Origin: Bacteroidia bacterium
GTDB lineage: Bacteria > Bacteroidota > Bacteroidia > B-17B0 > Aurantibacillaceae
Assembly: GCA_026414605.1 (NCBI GenBank)
Contig: JAOAIP010000038.1
Coordinates: 1 to 64,000 of the forward strand
DNA: 64,000 nt
Direction of reading: 5' to 3'
Shown: in pieces, positions 40,577-45,413 of the stretch
How the letters are laid out: each line of letters starts with the position of its first letter
How positions within the stretch are numbered: position 1 is the first letter of the stretch
Program-made: the position numbers and the translations under genes
The notes under the pieces: generated by a model
What the model saw: only the letters and a program-made list of their open reading frames with translations
Told to the model about the DNA's origin: nothing
Database searches by the model: none

Positions 40577-42955
40577 ATGAAAAAAATCGCTCATTTTATC
40601 CTTCAAAATAAATTCATTTTAAGTAGTGCTATTTTTTTATTAAGCATTGTATTAGCATTTTTTGCACTCAAAGTAGAAGTGGCTTTTCAATTTGTCAAAT
40701 TATTACCAGATAATGATCCAACAAGTATTCAGTATGAAAAATTTAAAAAGTATTTTAAGCAAGATGGTACGATATTAGTCATTGGTACAGAGTTTCATCA
40801 ATTATATCATCCAAAAGTATTTAAGGAATGGCATTTGTTAGGCAATAGAATCAAAAACATTCAAGGCATTCAATCTGTTGTCAGTATTGATAGATTGCTT
40901 AATATAGAATACAATGATTCATTAGAAAAATTTATAACAAAAGATCACGAATTGCCCAATTTTGATGATTCATTGAGTATTGCAAATTTTTTAAATGAGG
41001 TTCAAAACAATAAATTTTATGAGGAATTGATATTTAATAAAGAGAAAGATATTGTGGTAACAATGGTTACTTTCAAAGAAAAAGAATTGAATTCTAAACT
41101 GCGTCTTAGCATTACAGATTCTATTGTAAACCAAACGCAAAGTTTTGAAAAAGCAACTCATCTCTCACTGCATCTATCAGGGATGCCTTTTATACGCACA
41201 ACAATGATGCGTAAAATTTCATCTGAGACCACTTTCTTTTTTATAGTTGGTATTATTGTAGTATCGGTTTTGTTGTGGATATTCTTTCGATCGCCCATTG
41301 TGATTTTACTTTCAGCATTGGTGATTATTTTGGGTGTGGTGTCTGCTTTAGGAATTATGGTATTGCTGGGATATAAATTGTCCATTCTATCTGGATTATT
41401 ACCTGCTTTGTTGATTATCATTGGTGTACCAAATGGCATTTTGATTATCAATAAATACCATCACGAACTAAGGGCTGGTTATCCTGTTGAAAAAGCATTG
41501 GAGTTAGCCATTCGCAGTGCAGGAAATTCATTGTTTTTTGCTAATGTTACAACGGCTATTGGCTTTGCAGTATTATCATTAATTGACAATCAGATATTGT
41601 ATGAGTTTGGGATTATTGCGTCTATCAGTGTAATGTTAGTATATGTTTATTCAATTGTACTAATACCATCATTATTTAGTTGGTTACCTGCACCAAAAGA
41701 AAAGCACCTGATGCATCAAGAAAAGAAATGGTTGAAAAAAACACTCAATAGCATTGCATTATGGACATCGTATCATAGAAAAATTATATTTGTAGTAGTA
41801 GTAATCGTTGCGATTATTGGATTTTATGGATTTACAAAAATTCAAACTTTGGGGTATGTAGTAGATGATGTCCCAAAGAAAGAAAAGATGATGCAGGATT
41901 TACGCTATTTTGAAGATAAATTGGGCGGTGTTTTGCCTTTTGAAATTATGATTGACACTAAAAAGCCCAAAGGTGTTGTTGAAAATAACGGCAGAGTGTT
42001 ATATCGAATGCATAGAGCCCAAAAACTTTTGAGACAATATCCAGAATTAAGCCGTTCGCTTTCTATTGCAGACGCTATAAAATGGATCAATCAAGCATAC
42101 AAAGGAAAATACACAATGCCTGCAGTTTCTGATTTAAAGAAAATAGCAGATGTATTAAAAAGTGATAGCACACAAAAAAGAAACTCAGTAGCACAAAATT
42201 TAATGTCCAGTTTTATAGACACCAGTTATCAAATAGCCCGTATTAGTGCACAAATGAAAGATATTGGATCAATAAAGATAAAAGATCTTTTAAATCAATT
42301 GCAACCAAGATTGGATAGTATATTTAATTATGATGAAGACCAACAGCAATGGGTACCACAAGATAAAAGAGTAGAAATAAGCATTACAGGAAATAGCATT
42401 TTATTTTTGAAAGGGAATGATTTTTTAGTCAAAAATTTGATTGAGAGCATTGCTACTGCAATGGCGATTATTGCATTGTTATTATTAGTATTATTTAGAA
42501 ATCCGTATATGTTGTTGGTGGCTATCATTCCTTGTTTATCCTTGTTAGTAACTTCAGGAATAATGGGTTATTTAGGAATACCATTAAAGCCCAGTACTTT
42601 GTTAGTATTTAGTATTTCTTTTGGTATTGCCACAGATGGCAATTTGTACTTTTTGACACGATTTAGAAATGCAATAAAATTGCAGCACAAAACGTATGAA
42701 GAAGCCATTCGCTTGACCATTCGTGAAATAGGAATGAGTATGATCTACAATGGATTGGTTTTGTTTTTTGGGTTTGGAATGTTTGTCATATCCGATTTTG
42801 GCGGTACAAAAGCATTGGGGGTACTTACAGCATTTACATTATTAGTTGCATACAGTGTGGATTTAATTGTATTACCTACTGTATTACTTACATTCAAAAA
42901 ATGGTTTAATAAAAGGTTAGAGAAACAAAAAATTCAAAATTTTAAATGTTTGTAA
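40577..42955 (+). CDS. MMPL/RND superfamily exporter
   Basis: A 792-residue inner-membrane transporter with two repeats, each one N-terminal segment, a large periplasmic loop, and five more segments (first set about 215-370, second set about 630-780). The MMPL/SSD-like pattern includes GIPNGILIINKYHHELRAGY-like (about 284-303) and GIATDGNLYFLTRFRNA in the second half. It probably exports lipids or hydrophobic compounds using the proton gradient. The last nine residues (QKIQNFKCL) are not in the duplicated copy at 45255, where the frame ends at RLEK-stop. This suggests the original C-terminus was altered. Confidence 0.92.
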   Translation: MKKIAHFILQNKFILSSAIFLLSIVLAFFALKVEVAFQFVKLLPDNDPTSIQYEKFKKYFKQDGTILVIGTEFHQLYHPKVFKEWHLLGNRIKNIQGIQSVVSIDRLLNIEYNDSLEKFITKDHELPNFDDSLSIANFLNEVQNNKFYEELIFNKEKDIVVTMVTFKEKELNSKLRLSITDSIVNQTQSFEKATHLSLHLSGMPFIRTTMMRKISSETTFFFIVGIIVVSVLLWIFFRSPIVILLSALVIILGVVSALGIMVLLGYKLSILSGLLPALLIIIGVPNGILIINKYHHELRAGYPVEKALELAIRSAGNSLFFANVTTAIGFAVLSLIDNQILYEFGIIASISVMLVYVYSIVLIPSLFSWLPAPKEKHLMHQEKKWLKKTLNSIALWTSYHRKIIFVVVVIVAIIGFYGFTKIQTLGYVVDDVPKKEKMMQDLRYFEDKLGGVLPFEIMIDTKKPKGVVENNGRVLYRMHRAQKLLRQYPELSRSLSIADAIKWINQAYKGKYTMPAVSDLKKIADVLKSDSTQKRNSVAQNLMSSFIDTSYQIARISAQMKDIGSIKIKDLLNQLQPRLDSIFNYDEDQQQWVPQDKRVEISITGNSILFLKGNDFLVKNLIESIATAMAIIALLLLVLFRNPYMLLVAIIPCLSLLVTSGIMGYLGIPLKPSTLLVFSISFGIATDGNLYFLTRFRNAIKLQHKTYEEAIRLTIREIGMSMIYNGLVLFFGFGMFVISDFGGTKALGVLTAFTLLVAYSVDLIVLPTVLLTFKKWFNKRLEKQKIQNFKCL
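42824..42925 (+). repeat. Direct repeat copy A (3' end of MMPL gene)
   Basis: 102 bp encoding MMPL residues 750-783, repeated at 45255-45356 without gaps. There are three differences (ctt/cta, agt/agc, aaa/aag), all synonymous third-position changes. Confidence 0.95.
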
Positions 42956-42987
42956 TTCAATTATTTACTAAAAATACATCAAAAAAA

Positions 42988-43023
42988 TTTGTTTTTTTTT
43001 TTTTTTTTTCGTAAATACATTTG
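42988..43023 (+). promoter_or_regulatory. Promoter with an 18-T homopolymer spacer
   Basis: TTTG (42988-42991) is followed by 18 consecutive T (42992-43009), CGTAAA and TACATTTG (43016-43023, TAnnTTTG). The spacer is 24 nt, against 20-23 for the better promoters in this window. Slippage in the T tract would change the spacing and so the strength of transcription of the lipoprotein gene at 43133. Confidence 0.6.
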
Positions 43024-43028
43024 CCCCC

Positions 43029-43064
43029 GCTAATGTATTGTAAGGCGCCTACAAGACCATTAGC
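43029..43064. repeat. 36-bp palindrome in the lipoprotein leader
   Basis: Nested arms GCTAATG/CATTAGC, TTGTA/TACAA and GGC/GCC centred on GGCGCC form an almost loop-free dyad immediately downstream of the predicted -7 element. It would form a stem-loop at the 5' end of the transcript. Confidence 0.75.
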
Positions 43065-43087
43065 ACGAGTATTTGGCCAAATCTCGT
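43065..43087. repeat. Second palindrome abutting the first
   Basis: ACGAG and CTCGT flank the perfect 12-bp palindrome ATTTGGCCAAAT, with one extra T on the left. It begins at the base after the first palindrome ends and lies about 45 bp before the ATG at 43133. Confidence 0.75.
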
Positions 43088-43132
43088 ATGATTAATTAAA
43101 AACCATCATTAACCAATTAAAAAATTAAAATT

Positions 43133-43645
43133 ATGAAAAAAGCAATCATTTTGGTGGCATGTTTATCAATAATTGCTTGTAATAAGAAAGAAATAGGATT
43201 AAGTACTCAACCAGAAACAAATTCCATTATAACGGACGGGAATAGTAATTTGAAGCAGAATGTTTCTTGGGGTATATGTTGTGTGTGGAATGGCGTTGAC
43301 GATTGTGTCAAACCAGCCGTAAATTGCTTTGAGCCCGTAATCATTACACCAAAGTACACAGAACGTGCAAAAGCAAAGCATAATTTTGACTCACTAATTA
43401 CATTGGGTCCTAAGGGCGTTGCTAACTTCTTTTACTCCGATGATGCAAAAAAATTATTCCCAGATTTAACGTGTGTATGTGATAAAAATCCTTTTATAGA
43501 GTATTTGAATAAACTCACAAGTGGAAATTATTACATTACAACGACGCAGAAGGGTAACAAATTTTATTACTTAGTAAAACCTAATGGTACAAACAATGTG
43601 GATTTTGTTTTAGTTATCAAAGAAGAAGGAATTGGAAATAATTAA
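43133..43645 (+). CDS. Cysteine-rich hypothetical lipoprotein
   Basis: A 170-residue lipoprotein (LSIIAC, C16) of no family I recognise. After the lipid cysteine there are six more: C49-C50, C58, C65, C114 and C116 (WGICCVWNGVDDC, NCFEP, LTCVCDK), enough for three disulfides or a metal site. The C-terminal half (about 120-165) looks like a small beta sheet (YYITTTQKGNKFYYLV). It is the first gene of the island between the MMPL repeats, with its own promoter and terminator, so it may be made in larger amounts than the genes behind it. Confidence 0.8.
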   Translation: MKKAIILVACLSIIACNKKEIGLSTQPETNSIITDGNSNLKQNVSWGICCVWNGVDDCVKPAVNCFEPVIITPKYTERAKAKHNFDSLITLGPKGVANFFYSDDAKKLFPDLTCVCDKNPFIEYLNKLTSGNYYITTTQKGNKFYYLVKPNGTNNVDFVLVIKEEGIGNN

Positions 43646-43660
43646 ACCAATTGGTAAAAG

Positions 43661-43704
43661 AAATGAGGAAACTACACTTAAAAAGTGGTTTCCTCATTTT
43701 ATTT
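43661..43704 (+). terminator. Hairpin terminator after the cysteine-rich lipoprotein
   Basis: AAATGAGGAAAC pairs with GTTTCCTCATTT, extended by CACTT/AAGTG across a 2-nt bulge, followed by TTTTATTTG. Confidence 0.8.
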
Positions 43705-43751
43705 GTACTCTTCACATAATTTTTTAAAAGAATTGTTTTTAAGTATTCAAT

Positions 43752-44858
43752 ATGCGCATTTTTATTGTTTTAATACTGCTTATATTTTTCTTAAGGTGTA
43801 ACTTAAAAACTAAAGATATTTATGATCATCTTGTTATACCTGCAAATAAATGTCTCGTAACAGATAATATACAACTTCCATTTAATACAGATAGTGTACA
43901 CACAATAAAGTATTTTCATAATAAAAATTCAAGCGGTGATTATTTGTTTCTAAAAAGTTCTGGTAACAATATTTATTTTTTGAATTTACATTCAAAAAAA
44001 TTGACCCTTATACCATTCCCAACTAAAATTGATATTATTGATTTTGCCATTCATTCAATTGACAGTATTTATTTATTAACTGAAGATATTATTTATTTAA
44101 TTGACAATAAAGGACACTTAATAAATACAATAGAAATACCTTCTATTAAGGGTTACCATTTTTTTGCATCCTCTTTATTTCCATTTTACATAATAGATTC
44201 TTTGGCGTTTTTTTATAAATATCCTGAAGGTATAATCAATAGTTTAGATAAATATCACGAATTCATCAACTCTGATAGAGAAGTTTGTTACGATATCAAA
44301 CGTCAACAATTTATTGATTTAAAAAATAAAATCCACTATCCAAAAGAATTGAAATATCACTTCAAATATGTATTTAATCCTTGCAGAATAATAGATGATA
44401 AAATGAATTTAATATATTCATTTGAACATTCTGATACGGTTATTCTTTTAAATTATACATCTCAAAACATTCAAACATTTTCCATCAAGAGTAAATTTTT
44501 TGAAAACAACAATGACTTTGATTTTGAAAAAATAAATAATTTTTCAGAAATAGCAAGATATTTAATACAAAATTCAAGATATTATTCCATACTTTATGAT
44601 CCTTATAGAGAACTTTATTATAGAATTCATTTATGCAAATATACTTATTATAATAAAGATAATTCTATCAATTTAAGAACAGACGTTCCTTGGAGTATTC
44701 TTGTATGTAATAAAGAATTTAAAGTCATAAAAGAAATATTATTTGAACCTCGAACATACTATTTTAATCATATTATAATAACTAAAGATGGTTTATTAAT
44801 TAAAAAACAATCTTATGCGAATACTTATTCTCTTTTCAATGCTTTTACTACTTTGTAA
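43752..44858 (+). CDS. Propeller-like hypothetical lipoprotein (DUF4221-like?)
   Basis: A 368-residue exported protein: hydrophobic N-terminus MRIFIVLILLIFFLRC (C16, weak lipobox), then many short beta-strand units (DYLFLKSSGNNIYFLNL, SIYLLTEDIIYLIDNKGHL, TYYFNHIIITKDGLLI) suggesting a beta-propeller. Layout and length resemble DUF4221/six-bladed propeller lipoproteins of Bacteroidota, but I cannot assign it firmly. Codon use is extremely AT-rich, rich in Ile, Asn, Lys and Tyr, more so than the flanking genes. Its end overlaps the next gene by 44 bp in another frame. Confidence 0.75.
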   Translation: MRIFIVLILLIFFLRCNLKTKDIYDHLVIPANKCLVTDNIQLPFNTDSVHTIKYFHNKNSSGDYLFLKSSGNNIYFLNLHSKKLTLIPFPTKIDIIDFAIHSIDSIYLLTEDIIYLIDNKGHLINTIEIPSIKGYHFFASSLFPFYIIDSLAFFYKYPEGIINSLDKYHEFINSDREVCYDIKRQQFIDLKNKIHYPKELKYHFKYVFNPCRIIDDKMNLIYSFEHSDTVILLNYTSQNIQTFSIKSKFFENNNDFDFEKINNFSEIARYLIQNSRYYSILYDPYRELYYRIHLCKYTYYNKDNSINLRTDVPWSILVCNKEFKVIKEILFEPRTYYFNHIIITKDGLLIKKQSYANTYSLFNAFTTL

Positions 44859-45234
44859 TTGTAATATTCATAAAAAAAGTACAGAACAAGAATTGTTATT
44901 AATACTAAAATCATTTAACCTAAAAATTCAAGATAATACAGTGTATTTGCTTATACCATCAAACACTTGCTATGGATGTAGAAGAAAAACAATTGACACT
45001 TTATCTCAATTATCTTCTATAAAAAAATTAAATATTATTGTTATTACTTCCGACATATCTTTATTAACTTATAATAAATTACCCTATAAAATGATATTAG
45101 ATACACATCATATCGTTGATCGAAGTAGATATTTCAAAGAAAAGATTACATTATATCAACCAAACAAACAAGAATGTTCCATTAAACAGTTTGAACAATA
45201 TTCTATTGACAGTATATATATCTATCTGCGATAA
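44815..45234 (+). CDS. Thioredoxin-like CxxC lipoprotein
   Basis: A 139-residue exported protein with a lipoprotein-type signal (LLLLCNC, C14 or C16). A thioredoxin-like strand-loop-helix follows: NTVYLLIPSNTCYGCRRKTIDTL with C52-x2-C55, then KLNIIVITSD and YKMILDTHHIVD. It is shorter than TlpA proteins (about 160-190) and lacks an obvious cis-proline loop, so redox activity is uncertain. It overlaps the propeller gene by 44 bp and is the last gene before the MMPL repeat copy B. Confidence 0.7.
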   Translation: MRILILFSMLLLLCNCNIHKKSTEQELLLILKSFNLKIQDNTVYLLIPSNTCYGCRRKTIDTLSQLSSIKKLNIIVITSDISLLTYNKLPYKMILDTHHIVDRSRYFKEKITLYQPNKQECSIKQFEQYSIDSIYIYLR

Positions 45235-45248
45235 AAACGAAATTTTGA

Positions 45249-45359
45249 TACACGCTAACAGCATTTACATTATTAGTTGCATACAGCGTGGATTTAATTG
45301 TATTACCTACTGTATTACTTACATTCAAAAAGTGGTTTAATAAAAGGTTAGAGAAATAG
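45249..45359 (+). pseudogene. MMPL 3'-end fragment, direct repeat copy B
   Basis: In frame from 45255 this encodes the same 34 residues as the MMPL C-terminus (LTAFTLLVAYSVDLIVLP, ending FNKRLEK) and then stops with TAG at 45357. It is 99/102 identical to 42824-42925. The upstream frame is closed by TGA at 45246, so nothing else of an MMPL gene remains. It may be the original 3' end of the MMPL gene, cut off when the 2.4-kb block arrived. Confidence 0.9.
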
Positions 45360-45381: not shown

Positions 45382-45413
45382 TTGAAATAATTACATTTTT
45401 TTGAGTATATTTG
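45382..45413 (+). promoter_or_regulatory. Promoter for the small membrane protein gene
   Basis: TTG (45382-45384), 21 nt, TATATTTG (45406-45413). A full match to the Bacteroidota consensus, 60 nt before the ATG at 45474. Confidence 0.7.

Follow-up and report, generated by a model that had tools for sequence, protein, structure and literature searches.

An 18-T promoter in the 64,000-nt stretch of Bacteroidia DNA analysed here (the window), together with the structured leader that follows it, would best be read as the slippage-variable core of a conserved module that varies downstream expression, a reading to which we give a probability of roughly 60%. The module consists of AAAAATTTG, T(n), C-N5, TANAYTTGCNCC(C), a covarying hairpin whose 6-nt loop is palindromic and GC-only, and a final AATTAAARTTATG. 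It is present in three of the four genomes of the genus (the window genome G000, G001, and G002), is absent from the fourth (G003, 78% complete), and appears, as far as found, to be confined to this one Bacteroidia genus. Because the same promoter and leader stand in front of different genes in the relatives, with tracts of 10, 13, or 18 bases, the recurrent combination probably acts on expression as a genetic switch or dial. The T18 promoter is not a one-off; a preliminary description of this DNA, made from the window sequence, contained neither the recurrent promoter-plus-leader module nor the inserted cassette that carries it.

At the locus the sequence reads AAAAAAATTTG-T18-CGTAAA-TACATTTG-CCCCC, with the following parts:

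42988-42991, + strand: -33-like element TTTG, within the AAAAATTTG context, conserved in all four modules
42992-43009, + strand: T18 tract forming most of the spacer (T18, T13, and T10 in the other modules)
43010-43015, + strand: distal spacer CGTAAA, fixed at 6 nt (6 nt with an initial C in all four modules)
43016-43023, + strand: -7 element TACATTTG, then a C-rich start region (CCCCC here, CACCC in relatives)

The preliminary description had placed TTTG, an uninterrupted T18, the -7 element, and a 24-nt spacer here, and all are correct to the base in the window sequence. The element TACATTTG at 43016-43023 fits the -7 motif of sigma-ABfr-type promoters (TANNTTTG), and TTTG sits at 24 nt rather than at the 20-21 nt preferred in this genome. 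As in vlp-type promoters, the homopolymer lies between both core elements (-33 and -7), not upstream of the -35 region as in the sabA-type rheostat. From these elements the T18 module would be expected to have promoter activity. An invertible, recombinase-flipped Bacteroidota promoter was considered and rejected, as 42988-43023 is not closely flanked by a pair of inverted repeats.

How unusual the 24-nt spacing is was judged from the promoters of the same genome. Unique intergenic TTTG-N(k)-TANNTTTG sites, counted in a histogram that omits a CRISPR-like repeat also matching the pattern, peak at k=21, with some at k=20 and with k=22-26 at background, which rules out 24 nt as a simply normal spacing. 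Among 104 TANNTTTG sites upstream of starts, TTTG occurs at 21 nt in 10 (0.9 expected), at 20 nt in 3, and at 23 and 24 nt in 1 each (1.0 expected for each). With the peak at 21 nt and 24 nt at background, the assembled allele appears to exceed the optimum, which would be reached at n=15, by about 3 nt. The spacing histograms therefore bear out the earlier claim that 24 nt lies outside the optimum and that the loss of about three T would restore it; of the 20-23 nt range previously drawn from comparison promoters, 20-21 nt is right and 23 nt is not preferred, and the comparison promoter at 45382 has TTG, not TTTG. A C follows the -7 TTTG in 50% of the genome's promoters, compared to 13% in controls. 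Against the slippage-promoter reading, TTG stands at 20-21 nt in only about a fifth of promoter-like sites, so that the -33 element seems weakly required in this genome and spacing may matter less than assumed; in F. johnsoniae, a published study cited in PMC7366714 did not find a -33 motif either. The CRISPR-like array (G000:C1, locus L051) extends over about 2 kb with at least 27 copies at 76-77-nt spacing, and each copy of its repeat of about 47 nt (GTTGTGATTTGCTTTCAAAAAAGGATCTTTGATATATTTGCAACAAC) holds a perfect TTTG-N21-TATATTTG promoter.

The tract itself is exceptional in its genome: no other T or A run in the assembly (2,484,618 bases, 76 contigs) reaches 14 bases. Run-length statistics came from two genome samples (864 kb including the window): A/T runs in a 464-kb sample numbered 144 at length 8, 8 at length 9, and 1 at length 10, the next being T18 itself, and the longest A/T run in a further 400 kb was 11. 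A generous geometric extrapolation from lengths 4-9 predicts 0.0017 runs of 18 or more per genome. Long homopolymer runs are error-prone in assembly, and the source is a 76-contig assembly available as consensus only; an artefactual tract length is nonetheless highly improbable, as long tracts occupy the same place in three independent assemblies and ordinary short reads span 18 bases.

Two other runs were seen in the window genome. One is a G12 run (C12 on the coding strand; G000:C35, locus L062, 19232-19243) located some 10 codons from the start of a 594-aa ORF whose N-terminus is signal-like (MKTISPLFKFSPPPRK...), and in frame as assembled. Since C/G runs longer than 7 are nearly absent elsewhere in the genome samples, this C12 tract is a second contingency-locus candidate, and the presence of a second extreme tract, here in signal-peptide codons, suggests that the genome tolerates such loci. 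The other is a T10/A10 run (G000:C35, locus L203, 8691-8700) in a gene resembling that for DNA polymerase III gamma/tau, which has a programmed slippage site in other bacteria.

Comparison across genomes defined the module. The window, G002 (T18), and G001 (T13) have in common AAAAATTTG, a T tract, a C with five further bases, TANATTTGC[AC]CCC, a stem-loop, and a leader whose end is AATTAAARTTATG, and a leader covariance model recovered a fourth module (E 7e-10) with T10, 1.35 kb downstream of the first G002 module. Tract lengths of 18, 18, 13, and 10 give spacings of 24, 24, 19, and 16 nt; none of the four assembled alleles has n=15 exactly, which counts against the slippage-promoter reading. 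The module precedes three unrelated gene families, so it is the module, not the gene, that is conserved. The genes in G000 and G002 have predicted lipoprotein signals, those in G002 belonging to another lipoprotein family near two IS30-like transposase genes, and the gene in G001 is a non-secreted orphan that carries no lipoprotein signal.

Searches were also made at wider taxonomic scales. Of 87 family genomes, 4 have T12 or longer upstream of TANNTTTG, namely the window's own, G001, G002, and one from another genus (G069), whose match has neither TTTG nor leader. The pattern TTTG-T10+-N2-20-TANNTTTG gave three matches in 395 class genomes, one of them the window site, and TTTG-T8+...TANATTTGCNCC gave 45 stretches in 84,980 genomes, with long tracts plus leader only in two from the same genus. 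In the other stretches the tract is T8-T9, and several lie in front of genes for tRNAs or ribosomal proteins, which indicates that T8 after TTTG is ordinary and that T13-T18 is not. No credible member was found by the leader model outside the genus in 100 relatives or 395 class genomes, nor any credible further leader copy in the window genome or the class, and the 84,980-genome scan and the model searches of about 495 relatives together yielded no certain module member outside the genus. Weak leader-model matches (G011, G089, G275, and similar) were rejected because they have neither hairpin nor tract and their numbers are at chance expectation, as were two blast matches to T-rich regions (C64, C32), which are ordinary AT-rich sequence.

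In the window, the module is part of an insertion into the 3' end of a transporter gene, with these features:

42824-42925, + strand: left copy of a 102-nt duplication, made up of the MMPL transporter gene's 3' end (97% identical to 45255-45356 by repeat search)
42926-45254, + strand: inserted segment with the T-tract promoter and three lipoprotein genes (from the repeat bounds and same-genus comparison)
43133-43645, + strand: 170-aa predicted lipoprotein (signal ...IIACNKK) with the motif WGxCCVWNGVDxCVKPxxNCF (sequence and profile)
43665-43695, + strand: inverted repeat followed by ATTTTATTT, a probable terminator after the 170-aa lipoprotein gene (repeat search and sequence)
43752-44858, + strand: 368-aa predicted lipoprotein, DUF4221 (PF13970, E 7.4e-07)
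44815-45234, + strand: third cassette gene, a 139-aa predicted lipoprotein with CYGCRR, possibly thioredoxin-like (sequence and repeated order)
45255-45356, + strand: right copy of the 102-nt MMPL 3' end, running on to an ancestral-type stop (RLEK*; repeat and comparison)

The insertion is 2.3 kb long with a GC content of 25.5%, compared to 31.1% for the window, and the MMPL gene of the same-genus genomes stops about 10 codons sooner, with other genes behind it. The 170-aa lipoprotein has no Pfam or NCBIfam match; close orthologues numbered none in the genome-contig collection and one in 150 relatives, a two-sequence profile matched 8 of 395 genomes (its own two included), and a single-sequence structure prediction reached a pLDDT of 36. 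A phage origin was rejected, as the lipoprotein had no tblastn match in phages and the viral contigs with T10+ spacers had no leader. The three-gene order (a small lipoprotein with the tryptophan- and cysteine-containing motif given above, a DUF4221 lipoprotein, and a further small lipoprotein with CxxCRR or CxxC), or its first genes, recurs in the three profile-matched genomes that were inspected (G096, G465, and G292; loci L185, L186, and L189), all of other families and none with the tract, and this indicates separate histories for the cassette and the promoter module.

A difference in tract length is seen between the tandem modules of G002, which have T18 and T10 and each precede a paralogous lipoprotein gene. 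The 20 nt to the left and the 14 nt to the right of the tract are identical between these paralogues, the leader is 86% identical, and the first 360 coding nt are 93% identical. Tract length therefore differs between copies whose flanks are conserved, as in vlp-type systems, and hypervariability of the tract across copies and species (18/18/13/10) is well supported by a comparison of four modules from single consensus assemblies of three species. The observed spacings match what slippage would predict, though between copies and species, not cells. Of the earlier proposal that slippage could switch the lipoprotein on and off, the geometry has held up and has been joined by T13, T10, and T18 with conserved edges at the same promoter of relatives; slippage within a population and an effect on expression would be the further steps of that proposal.

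The T10 copy of G002 has an altered -7 element (TATACTTG) and a frameshifted gene, and may on both counts be silent or decaying, which counts against the slippage-promoter reading. That degeneracy, the cassette being an insertion, and the tract-free homologous cassettes of other families would all accord with a tract that expanded neutrally, with no regulatory role, because the promoter of this recently acquired cassette is weak or dead. We nevertheless consider neutral expansion improbable, given that three species have a long tract at exactly the same position in front of three gene families and that runs of 10 or more are otherwise nearly absent.

The G002 pair (locus L179, G002:C7, 2512-4567) lies in the region with the two IS30-like transposase genes, and its tandem lipoprotein paralogues are 93% identical in their 5' halves and about 61% identical in their 3' halves, with different cysteine-rich ends and a frameshift in the second. 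This pair looks like a diversifying surface or secreted protein.

For the slippage-variable promoter, the mechanism we propose would run as follows. Polymerase with the primary Bacteroidota sigma factor would recognise TTTG and TANNTTTG, with the T tract setting the distance and phasing between them. Slipped-strand replication would alter n, so that spacing could pass through values such as 24, 19, and 16 nt, on either side of the optimum of 21 nt (n=15), and the altered -33/-7 distance would switch or grade transcription of the downstream gene from cell to cell.

A promoter that varies by slippage and is joined to a new structured leader, which is our best reading, would be formally like the vlp system of Mycoplasma hyorhinis, in which a poly-A tract lies in the promoter region (Citti and Wise 1995, reviewed in PMC10502178). 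Both have a homopolymer in the promoter of lipoprotein genes, surface ones in vlp and predicted ones in G000 and G002, and length change in vlp is thought, according to that review, to alter promoter geometry and give ON/OFF expression. They differ in phylum, sigma factor, and coding-strand base, and in that here a structured leader belongs to a conserved module whose downstream genes are mutually unrelated and whose switching is a prediction. The sabA promoter of Helicobacter pylori is likewise tuned by T-tract slippage (PMC4081817), but its tract shifts UP-like contacts from a position next to the core promoter or upstream of it, whereas here it is the -33/-7 spacer. In Bordetella fim2/fim3/fimX a promoter homopolymer also changes a critical distance and the transcript level (PMC1891110), although this is a C tract between the activator site and the -10 region. 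Both core elements match Bacteroides sigma-ABfr promoters (TTTG / TAnnTTTG, PMC7366714), from which the present promoter differs in a spacer that is homopolymeric and 3 nt longer than the genome's optimum.

These comparisons also bear on a lesser but still plausible possibility, that the tract acts as in sabA by altering DNA bending and helical phasing, giving tuning in small steps and no true OFF state. In its favour are a variable tract close to the promoter, the multiphasic output of the sabA T-tract (PMC4081817), and the fim C-stretch data, which speak against a strict threshold (PMC1891110); against it, the sabA tract is found upstream of the core promoter, whereas the present one forms the spacer itself, where distance should matter more. 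Within the slippage-promoter reading, a graded, sabA-like effect would be equally possible as a vlp-like ON/OFF one.

In the searches of open-access papers made for this analysis, no homopolymer-slippage promoter was found described for Bacteroidota. Phase variation in this phylum is known mainly through DNA inversion. If the slippage-promoter reading is true, simple-sequence contingency loci reach beyond host-adapted pathogens to bacteria known only from environmental assemblies.

The second half of the module is the leader, which in the window folds into two hairpins:

43029-43064, + strand: leader hairpin 1, with palindrome GGCGCC (43044-43049) in the apical loop (fold and covariation)
43065-43087, + strand: leader hairpin 2, with palindrome ATTTGGCCAAAT (fold; CCTGCAGG and GCTTGCAAGC at the matching place in relatives)

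Hairpin 1 begins 5 nt after the TTTG of the -7 element, and the transcript would start just before it. In an alignment of four rows, two of them related paralogues, 7 of 13 pairs are changed on both sides and 90% of cells pair, with a covariation score of 0.53 compared to 0.25 in shuffles (0 of 500 reach 0.53) and at most 0.19 when slid. All four apical loops have a GC-only 6-nt palindrome (GGCGCC, GCCGGC twice, and GCGCGC), for which the chance is 8.6e-5 per position and about 4e-4 per 10-nt loop. The palindrome sits off-centre, with three bases before and one after when a 10-nt loop is taken, and its flanks, compared with the purines expected around kissing-loop palindromes, are A on the 3' side in three members (U in G000) and A on the 5' side in three (C in G002A). 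Predicted loop self-pairing amounts to -13.9 to -15.5 kcal/mol, versus -5.5 to -7.8 between species. Self-recognition between RNAs would account better than a fixed DNA operator for an off-centre palindrome whose sequence changes while it stays palindromic. A known RNA family was ruled out as the identity of the leader by Rfam 15, in which the window leader had no match at E 1 and the relatives had only chance-level matches; the leader would be a structured RNA of a new and compact kind, with covarying pairs and loops complementary to themselves.

Six-nucleotide palindromic kissing loops are known from the retroviral dimer site and the oskar 3'UTR (review PMC7357161). The likeness lies in a GC-rich, self-complementary 6-nt palindrome in the apical loop of a conserved stem, found here in all four members with stem covariation; the differences are that this is a bacterial mRNA leader with three different palindromes, known from sequence and predicted fold. 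As to function, the loop with its GC-only palindrome may serve to protect the mRNA or to bring two transcripts into pairing. It is unlikely, in our view, that such a leader (kissing-loop or regulatory 5' RNA) is the functional unit and the T tract a tolerated by-product of T-rich spacers. The GC-only palindromes of three different sequences, the strong self-pairing, the helix covariation, and the commonness of T8 after TTTG at ordinary promoters would favour this, yet T8 is the norm, nothing else exceeds it as T18 does, and the module edges around the tract are conserved as much as the leader.

More doubtful, and extending the slippage-promoter reading, is a cassette in which the variable promoter sets the amount of mRNA and a kissing-loop leader ties the fate of that mRNA to its own concentration. 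The loop palindromes differ between species, each being self-complementary, as co-evolving self-recognition would require. If such a cassette exists, small tract changes would produce sharp expression states, and it would have been fitted to different, often horizontally acquired, genes.

Further along the leader, about 60-100 nt after the -7 element in the modules at loci L037, L035, and L177, AAAGG(AT) follows the second palindrome and may form a pseudoknot by pairing with (AT)CCTTT, which lies in the loop of a third, A/T-rich hairpin; this third hairpin is absent from the window copy.
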